NCBI RefSeq assembly: GCF_020614395.1
Contig: NZ_CP085324.1
Span: 1,741,564-1,805,563 of the forward strand
Reading direction: 5' to 3'
Length of the DNA stretch: 64,000 nucleotides
Origin: Salarchaeum japonicum
GTDB lineage: Archaea > Halobacteriota > Halobacteria > Halobacteriales > Halobacteriaceae
Shown here: positions 20,794 to 22,389 of the stretch, in pieces
Layout: each line of letters opens with the position of its first letter
Numbering within the stretch: the first letter of the stretch is position 1
Notes under the pieces: generated by a model
What the model was told of the DNA's origin: nothing
Database searches by the model: none
What the model saw: the letters and a program-made list of their open reading frames with translations, nothing else
Translations under genes and position numbers: made by a program

Positions 20794-21207
20794 TTACTCG
20801 ACGCGGAGCGTCATCGTGAGCGGCGCGCCGTCTGCGAGTGAGGTGACGTAGTCGCGGGGGAGGTCGGCGGCCGCGGCGTCGGCGTCCACCATGATGGTGC
20901 GGTCGTCGACGTACGTGCTGGTGCGGCCGACGTGCCCGCGCTGGTTCTCGAACGCGAGGTCGGGGTGGCCGCTCCCCGTGATTGTGACGCGTTCGTCGGG
21001 GGTTTCGAGGATGGCGGTGATGGTGGCGCTCTCGTCCCGGCAGGCATCGACGAACTCGCGCGAGAAGTCGCTGGGGGCGCGGTCGGCGTCGATGGCGAGG
21101 ATGCAGTCGCCGGCGGGCGTGAGGTAGTCGTCGGTCGTGACCTCGAACGTGCTCGCGTGTTCGGCGGAGACGTTCTCGTGGCCGCGGGCGTGCACGACTT
21201 CTTCCAT
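20794..21207 (-). CDS. DUF371 family protein
   Basis: 137 residues starting MEEVVHARGHENVSAEHASTFE, the conserved opening of the archaeal DUF371 family, including RGHENV and LTPAGDCILAI. The family has no established function to my knowledge. The start sits in a GGGTATG context; upstream reading is a shadow. A TATA-like CATAAAGA on the minus strand near 21241-21248 is about 37 nt away. Confidence 0.85.
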   Translation of the reverse strand: MEEVVHARGHENVSAEHASTFEVTTDDYLTPAGDCILAIDADRAPSDFSREFVDACRDESATITAILETPDERVTITGSGHPDLAFENQRGHVGRTSTYVDDRTIMVDADAAAADLPRDYVTSLADGAPLTMTLRVE

Positions 21208-21327
21208 ACCCGCGTTCGGCCCCTCTCGCACTTGAAGGTCTTTATGTGTGCGCGGATTCGCCGAAATCGTGCTAGAGTCCCGCAACCGGCTGCGTGGTAG
21301 CTGTTTGCACACCCCGGCCGAGGGCAA

Positions 21328-21337
21328 ATTTTAAATG
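21328..21337 (+). promoter_or_regulatory. Strong TATA box upstream of the coiled-coil gene
   Basis: AATTTTAAAT in an otherwise GC-rich context, the clearest archaeal TATA box in the window. The predicted start near 21356-21360 leaves about 130 nt before the ATG at 21490, an unusually long leader. Confidence 0.6.
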
Positions 21338-21353
21338 TCTATGGGAGGTACTA

Positions 21354-21489
21354 GGTGATACCTGAACGCCCCAGCGTTCACCAGCACCGCTCGAGAATGA
21401 CAGGCCGTTCTCACTTACGACGATCCGAAGGGACTGGCGAGCGACGCCTGTGTGGCGCACAGCGGCGGAATGGAACCGAGGTTTGAACA
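21354..21489 (+). ncRNA. Structured leader RNA or independent small RNA (candidate)
   Basis: About 136 nt between a strong TATA box and the coiled-coil gene start. Three hairpins can be drawn. The first, 21354-21388, has a 7-bp perfect stem TGAACGC/GCGTTCA with a CCCA loop plus an outer GGTG/CACC closure. The second, 21393-21412, pairs GAGAATG with CGTTCTC around ACAGGC. The third, 21445-21467, pairs CGCC-TGTG with CACA-GC-GGCG. No open reading frame of note lies in it. It could be a 5' leader, an H/ACA or other guide RNA, or a separate transcript; I cannot tell which. Confidence 0.5.
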
Positions 21490-22389
21490 ATGGTAGAACA
21501 AGAAACTATCGACGTGTCGTCCGCGGACGAGCTGATTACTGACGAAGAACTCGAGAGCAAATCCAAGGGCCAGCTTATCAAGAAAGCCGGCCAGTTCCGT
21601 GACCGACGGAACGAGCTCAACCAACTCGCGTCCTCGCGCGCCTCCAAGCGCGACGAGCTGAACGCGAAGACGCGCGAGAAGGTCGACGCGGCGCAGGAAC
21701 ACCGCGAGGACCGCGACGAACTGAACGAGCGCGTGCAGGAGCACAAGGAGATTCGAAACGAGCTCAACGCCGAAGCGAACGAGCTCTTCGAAGAGGTCGA
21801 AGACCGCAAGTCCGACCTCGAACTCGACGAGGGCAAAGACCTCGAAGAGCTGAAAGAGGAGATCGAACAGCTCGAGTTCAAGCAGCAGACCGAAGTCCTC
21901 TCCACGGAGGACGAGCGCGAGCTCATCGAGAAGATCGAGCAGAAGCGCGAGGAGTACCAGACGCGCAAGGAGAAGCTCGACCAGACCGAGGGGCTCGACG
22001 AGCTCGTCGAGGAAGCAGAAGAGGTTCGCGCCGAGGCGTCGAAGCACCACGAGAAGGTGACGGAGCTCGCAGACCGCGCGCAGAAGCACCACAACGAGAT
22101 GATCGAGGCCTACCGGGAGGCCGACGACATCCGTGACGAGGCCGACGAGAAGCACGAGGCGTTCGTCGAGGCCCAGGAGGCCGCCGACGCGCACCACGAG
22201 GCCTTCGTTCGCGTGCAGAAGCGTCTGCGCGAGCTCGATAAGGAAGAAGAAGAGGAGAAGCAGTCCCAGCGCGAAGCGAAGCGCCAGGAAGCGAAGGAAG
22301 AGGCCGAGGACATCTACGAGCGGTTCCAGGAGGGCGAGACCCTCGACACCGAGGACCTCCGGAAGCTCCAGAAGTCCGGTCTCCTATAG
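21490..22389 (+). CDS. Long acidic coiled-coil protein, function unknown
   Basis: 299 residues, almost entirely charged heptad repeats (Glu, Lys, Arg, Asp with Leu at core positions) from about 25 to 275, with no hydrophobic helix or enzyme motif. Archaea-wide coiled-coil proteins of this type exist, some annotated by weak resemblance to Rad50 or phosphoserine phosphatase; neither label is supported. It is strongly expressed-looking: a good TATA box and a long leader. The start ATG follows TTTGAACA, without the GTATG context of leaderless genes. Confidence 0.85.
   Translation: MVEQETIDVSSADELITDEELESKSKGQLIKKAGQFRDRRNELNQLASSRASKRDELNAKTREKVDAAQEHREDRDELNERVQEHKEIRNELNAEANELFEEVEDRKSDLELDEGKDLEELKEEIEQLEFKQQTEVLSTEDERELIEKIEQKREEYQTRKEKLDQTEGLDELVEEAEEVRAEASKHHEKVTELADRAQKHHNEMIEAYREADDIRDEADEKHEAFVEAQEAADAHHEAFVRVQKRLRELDKEEEEEKQSQREAKRQEAKEEAEDIYERFQEGETLDTEDLRKLQKSGLL

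Follow-up and report, generated by a model that had tools for sequence, protein, structure and literature searches.

A conserved leader with an upstream open reading frame before the haloarchaeal DUF7121 gene

The DUF7121 gene of the window (the whole 64-kb stretch of DNA analysed here) lies behind a leader that, judged by comparison with relatives, is real and conserved across the haloarchaeal order, but not as the three local hairpins proposed in a preliminary description of this DNA. The leader carries a 5'-terminal hairpin (P1), a long helix (P2), a pseudoknot and an unannotated upstream open reading frame (uORF), the last three of which were absent from that description. It is probable that this leader, acting in cis on its own gene, couples the translation of DUF7121 to that of the uORF through the pseudoknot. 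The features concerned are, in window coordinates:

21295–21312, plus strand: upstream promoter element TGGTAGCTGTTTGCACAC, consensus TGCTAACGGTTTTCA, by pattern match in relatives
21328–21337, plus strand: TATA box ATTTTAAATG, at fixed spacing to the leader start
21358–21360, plus strand: predicted transcription start, where the leader begins ACCTGAACG, from the fixed TATA spacing
21364–21379, plus strand: P1 hairpin, stem GAACGC/GCGTTC, loop CCCA, by comparative pairing
21367–21371, plus strand: pseudoknot 5' strand CGCCC, by sequence alignment; weak in the window's genus
21380–21393, plus strand: P2 helix 5' strand, core CGCTCG at 21388–21393, by comparison of strands, also in held-out leaders
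21397–21486, plus strand: unannotated uORF of 29 codons plus TGA, product MTGRSHLRRSEGTGERRLCGAQRRNGTEV, a conserved open frame
21438–21454, plus strand: P2 helix 3' strand, core CGAGCG at 21438–21443, by own versus swapped partners
21462–21467, plus strand: pseudoknot 3' strand GCGGCG, immediately upstream of the conserved GGAATGGAACCGAGG box; weak in the window's genus
21478–21482, plus strand: Shine–Dalgarno (SD)-like GAGGT, overlapping the last uORF codons, from the sequence and conserved in relatives
21490–22389, plus strand: DUF7121 gene, encoding a 299-aa coiled-coil protein (Pfam PF23435, E = 1.5e-129)

Leaders were collected from 147 loci of the order and reduced to 120 unique and then to 87 less-similar sequences. 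A held-out set of 49 leaders from three families was fetched afterwards and analysed in the same windows. The leader precedes DUF7121 in almost every sampled family of the order, and its conservation continues into the DUF7121 start codon in relatives. A covariance model of the 5' half of the leader gave one strong match per genome, always before DUF7121; extra matches were few and weak (E 0.03–0.09), and none of the strong matches lay apart from DUF7121 or in several genomic contexts. Rfam covariance models, including those of C/D and H/ACA guides and of ribosomal leaders, gave no match to the leader at gathering score or at E <= 5. No published description of this element was found in the open-access literature.

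A TATA box pattern was found in 112 of the 120 unique leaders; of these, 97 have TTTAA 29 nt before the leader start, measured to a conserved ACC, and another 12 have it 30 nt before. Because this spacing is fixed at 29–30 nt, the RNA very probably starts at the P1 hairpin, and the predicted 5' end of the DUF7121 transcript falls at the ACCAGAACG position. Two claims of the preliminary description were borne out here, namely that this TATA box is the strongest of the window (TTTTAAA occurs only once in its 64 kb, at 21329, with a window GC content of 68%) and that about 130 nt of leader precede the ATG (130 nt from the predicted start near 21360 to 21490). Further upstream, a TGCTAACGGTTTTCA-like pattern was matched in 57 of 119 leaders, and in nearly all of these it lies at precisely -65 relative to the leader start; this position suggests a conserved transcription-factor site. 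On the other side of the promoter region lies a divergent DUF371 gene (20794–21207, minus strand), so that neither flanking gene has a known function.

Taken alone, the window leader folds no better than chance (z = 0.01, with 97 of 200 shuffles as good), and single-sequence folding was rejected as evidence for its structure. The case for the fold therefore rests on comparison. The pairing energy of each leader's own strands was set against that of strands swapped between leaders, which preserves composition and position. P1, whose true stem (21364–21369 with 21374–21379) is conserved, was paired in 90.6% of cells (own versus swapped z = -3.7). P2 pairs the segment after P1 with the segment after the uORF start, and scored -19.4 with its own and -15.6 with swapped partners (z = -10, 0/20000 permutations, which correct only partly for shared ancestry); in the 49 held-out leaders z was -3.0 (47/20,000). 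The pseudoknot, in which the P1 loop pairs with a block 20–31 nt upstream of the DUF7121 start codon, gave -15.4 versus -12.5 kcal/mol under the same permutations (z = -8.5, 0/20000) and z = -3.9 (3/20,000) in the held-out leaders. Two control window pairs were null in the discovery leaders, as was the control in the held-out leaders.

Compensatory changes occur at 7 of 7 pseudoknot pairs in a sequence-based alignment, with covariation of 0.462 versus 0.190 when shuffled and at most 0.145 when slid. The covarying forms include CACCGG/CCGGTG, CTCCGG/CCGGAG, CTCCAG/CTGGAG and CACTGG/CCAGTG, and further GTGCGG/CCGCAC, TCACGA/TCGTGA and GGTTCC/GGAACC. The three consecutive hairpins described earlier fared unevenly against these data. 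Hairpin 1 is conserved, while the hairpins as a set did not hold, given the z of the window leader. Compensatory changes, present in P1, P2 and the pseudoknot, are absent from hairpin 2 (21393–21412), which showed neither covariation nor any gain over swapped partners (z = +1.8) and was rejected as a conserved helix. The position of hairpin 3 (21445–21467) is taken up in relatives by two 3' strands, that of the outer P2 and that of the pseudoknot.

The two genomes of the window's genus lack one base of the P1 loop found in relatives, and their pseudoknot is weak, comprising about 5 bp with a bulge and running into the P1 stem; the strict 5-bp loop register was not found there. The Halobacterium pseudoknot (CGCTG/CAGCG) varies little within that genus. 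For both reasons, we infer the pseudoknot of the window's family from relatives, and it would there compete, rather than coexist, with P1. In another family (f17; L204, L208 and relatives), the P1 3' strand and the next bases (GCGTTCGGCA) are complementary to TGCCGAACGC further downstream, a hint that the leader may fold differently there.

The uORF of the window starts at a conserved ATGACAGG (21397), near the tip of P2, and its TGA (21484–21486) is separated from the DUF7121 ATG by 3 nt. In the 87 less-similar leaders its frame holds a single stop in 1,955 codons, while one of the other frames holds 31, omitting TGA inside ATGA, and the second holds 35; the single stop of the uORF frame occurs in L009, where the uORF ATG has become ACG. 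Thirty-seven of 38 divergent leaders keep the frame open, compared with 27.2 +/- 2.7 in shuffles (0/1000). The extra stretch of 30 long leaders is unalignable (median ungapped identity 33%), and in these expansions the uORF frame contains 0 stops in 825 codons versus 17 and 15 in the other two. Corresponding figures for the held-out leaders are 0 stops in 1,060 codons versus 14 and 14. The uORF stop lies -16 to +24 nt from the DUF7121 ATG in 85/85 discovery leaders with an ATG, and -10 to +6 nt from it in 47/49 held-out leaders, so that the uORF and DUF7121 are arranged like a termination-reinitiation pair, with the upstream stop at or near the downstream start. The placement of this stop beside both the SD-like GAGGT and the ATG fits reinitiation.

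Although the first residues of the uORF product are alike across families (MTG[N/D/R]), synonymous and nonsynonymous counts over the first 8 codons were similar in all frames, and the uORF was rejected as a conserved peptide for want of a clear excess of synonymous change. Its length ranges from 25 to 75 codons, and lineages differ in the frame in which its C-terminal end reads the 3' box. A conserved C-terminus, 'YGTEV', was dropped because all three frames of that box are used in one lineage or another. An apparent frame rescue in L048/L103, with a 1-nt deletion and a new upstream ATG, was likewise dropped because L145 has the same new ATG without the deletion. With the frame conserved while the peptide shows no detectable conservation, selection seems to act on translating the uORF and not on its product. 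The uORF is not indispensable everywhere, as shown by one genus (g2) with an ACG start in two of three cases and an earlier stop in the third, by loss of the start in L116 (no ATG) and its alteration in L121 (ACG), and by L225/L229, in which the uORF overlaps DUF7121 by >60 nt.

The downstream gene is nearly universal, with a PF23435 (DUF7121) match in 389 of 392 genomes of the haloarchaeal order and DUF7121 present in 118 of 120 genomes of a phylum sample. A structure model of the protein is a long antiparallel coiled coil (pLDDT 88). A fold search with this model against the PDB returned generic coiled coils only, none at E <= 0.001, and the assignment of a function on this basis was dropped; a sequence search against the PDB found no convincing relative, and a literature search on DUF7121 or COG1340 found no functional study. 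Genomes of family f19 (G393, G402, G445, G465 and others) also carry a second, diverged DUF7121 relative (22–28% identity).

In outgroups within the phylum, DUF7121 usually follows an ORF for a SerB-like HAD phosphatase, an identity assigned by eye from motifs, and the two are closely spaced in several. In family f10 the SerB-like ORF overlaps DUF7121 as ATGA, and in some outgroup families DUF7121 lies within an open frame of ~515 aa resembling a SerB–DUF7121 fusion (loci in which DUF7121 follows, overlaps or joins the SerB-like ORF: L148–L152, L159, L162, L131 and L132). From these arrangements, coupling of DUF7121 to a preceding ORF may be the ancestral state, with the uORF as its haloarchaeal replacement. 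Between the SerB-like ORF and the start of DUF7121, genomes of family f19 (L153–L157) share another conserved stretch rich in hairpins (GTGCATTAGAAATGCATGAAATGCCAGC...GCTGG...GGGAGG), which may be a leader element of its own.

The proposed coupling would operate as follows. The transcript would begin at the P1 hairpin, and P2 and the pseudoknot, on the comparative evidence, would fold the leader into one unit beside the DUF7121 start. The uORF, whose open frame points to its translation, runs through the 3' strands of P2 and the pseudoknot to the DUF7121 ATG. A ribosome on the uORF would most likely open the fold, stop by the SD-like GAGGT and reinitiate at the DUF7121 ATG. As that ribosome would have to open the fold before reinitiating, the fold would set the frequency of reinitiation; and as the fold crosses the ribosome's path, the leader should not be able to stay folded while the uORF is being translated, nor the reverse. 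One candidate for shifting this balance is the DUF7121 protein, binding its own leader. The earlier suggestion that translation depends on a regulatory 5' leader is thus supported by the covarying helices and by the presence of the same gene behind the leader in almost all relatives. A broader and tentative proposal, to which we give less than even chances, is an order-wide switch, kept throughout the haloarchaea, in which the state of the fold is read out by translating a uORF whose peptide is free to evolve, in place of an ancestral coupling to an upstream SerB-like gene; the fold state in such a switch would possibly be set by the DUF7121 protein itself.

Other readings of the leader have to be weighed against this coupling. 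Regulation could reside in the pseudoknotted RNA itself, as an aptamer that binds a metabolite, an ion or a protein, with the open frame secondary or incidental. In favour of this are the strong covariation seen in all three elements (P1, P2 and the pseudoknot), a conserved ATGACAGGGAA block that evolves unlike coding sequence, and the lack of the uORF start in some lineages. The stop-free state of the unalignable expansions nevertheless speaks for a translated frame, as does the fact that in nearly all leaders this frame closes where the gene begins, chance being excluded by the shuffles; a variable insert of 0–150 nt would also be unusual within a compact aptamer. An aptamer acting on its own is therefore considered unlikely.

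It is more doubtful still that the uORF product acts through its sequence, as an arrest peptide or a trans-acting small protein, with the RNA fold secondary. The conserved start and open frame and the shared first residues would agree with a functional peptide, but the synonymous fraction of the coding frame is hardly above that of the other two, and both the length of the product and the frame of its C-terminus depend on lineage. Least probable of all is an independent small RNA, or a leader processed into one, the guide RNA of the preliminary description being one form of this idea. Its appeal lies in a strong promoter and a compact fold; yet the element is single-copy and always directly upstream of DUF7121, its conserved sequence reaches into the start codon, the TATA box is the gene's own promoter, and the C/D and H/ACA models were among those without a match even at E <= 5. 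Coupling of DUF7121 to its uORF through the leader fold remains the preferred reading.

In Haloferax, 72% of transcripts are leaderless, in line with what the preliminary description says of most promoters in the window, and structured leaders were deemed untypical of haloarchaea in a start-site study (PMC4983044). The DUF7121 leader combines strong covariation with a uORF and is nearly order-wide in a group thought poor in such structures. It offers a defined handle on how archaeal ribosomes meet structured leaders and reinitiate, and a clue that the dose of the DUF7121 protein is tightly controlled.

Several known systems bear comparison. Sixteen uORFs are listed for Haloferax UTRs of 150–250 nt, and leaders of ~130 nt fall outside the range searched in that survey (PMC4983044). 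Those of Haloferax volcanii are likewise short ORFs (15–31 aa) in haloarchaeal 5'-UTRs, but their proteins have a low isoelectric point whereas the DUF7121 uORF product is arginine-rich; the table concerned names no DUF7121 gene and reports neither conservation nor an RNA fold for them (PMC4983044, Table 2). The archaeal S15, eL15 and L4 leaders (PMC7247131) are also cis-regulatory structured leaders, one of them in Halobacteria, but belong to other genes, and the DUF7121 leader matches no Rfam model at E <= 5. SD motifs of Haloferax seem not to drive initiation in 5'-UTRs, and a role in reinitiation has been proposed for them (PMC3986360). Haloferax carries out termination-reinitiation efficiently, as shown for ordinary gene pairs in the relevant sections of PMC6728339. 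The H. volcanii pairs presented there resemble the uORF and DUF7121 in having the first stop at or near the second start and an SD-like motif ahead of that start, but unlike the DUF7121 leader they are ordinary genes for which those sections describe no conserved RNA fold. An upstream loop-to-start-region pseudoknot with covariation, of the L20 type, was found in relatives and is weak in the window's genus. As cited in PMC6728339, the E. coli IF3–L35–L20 operon (Chiaruttini et al., 1996) shares with the DUF7121 leader a long-range pseudoknot beside a start site, and couples upstream-ORF translation to a downstream gene, as is proposed here. In that operon normal genes take the upstream position and a ribosomal protein serves as ligand, whereas the present case would involve a short uORF in an archaeon.
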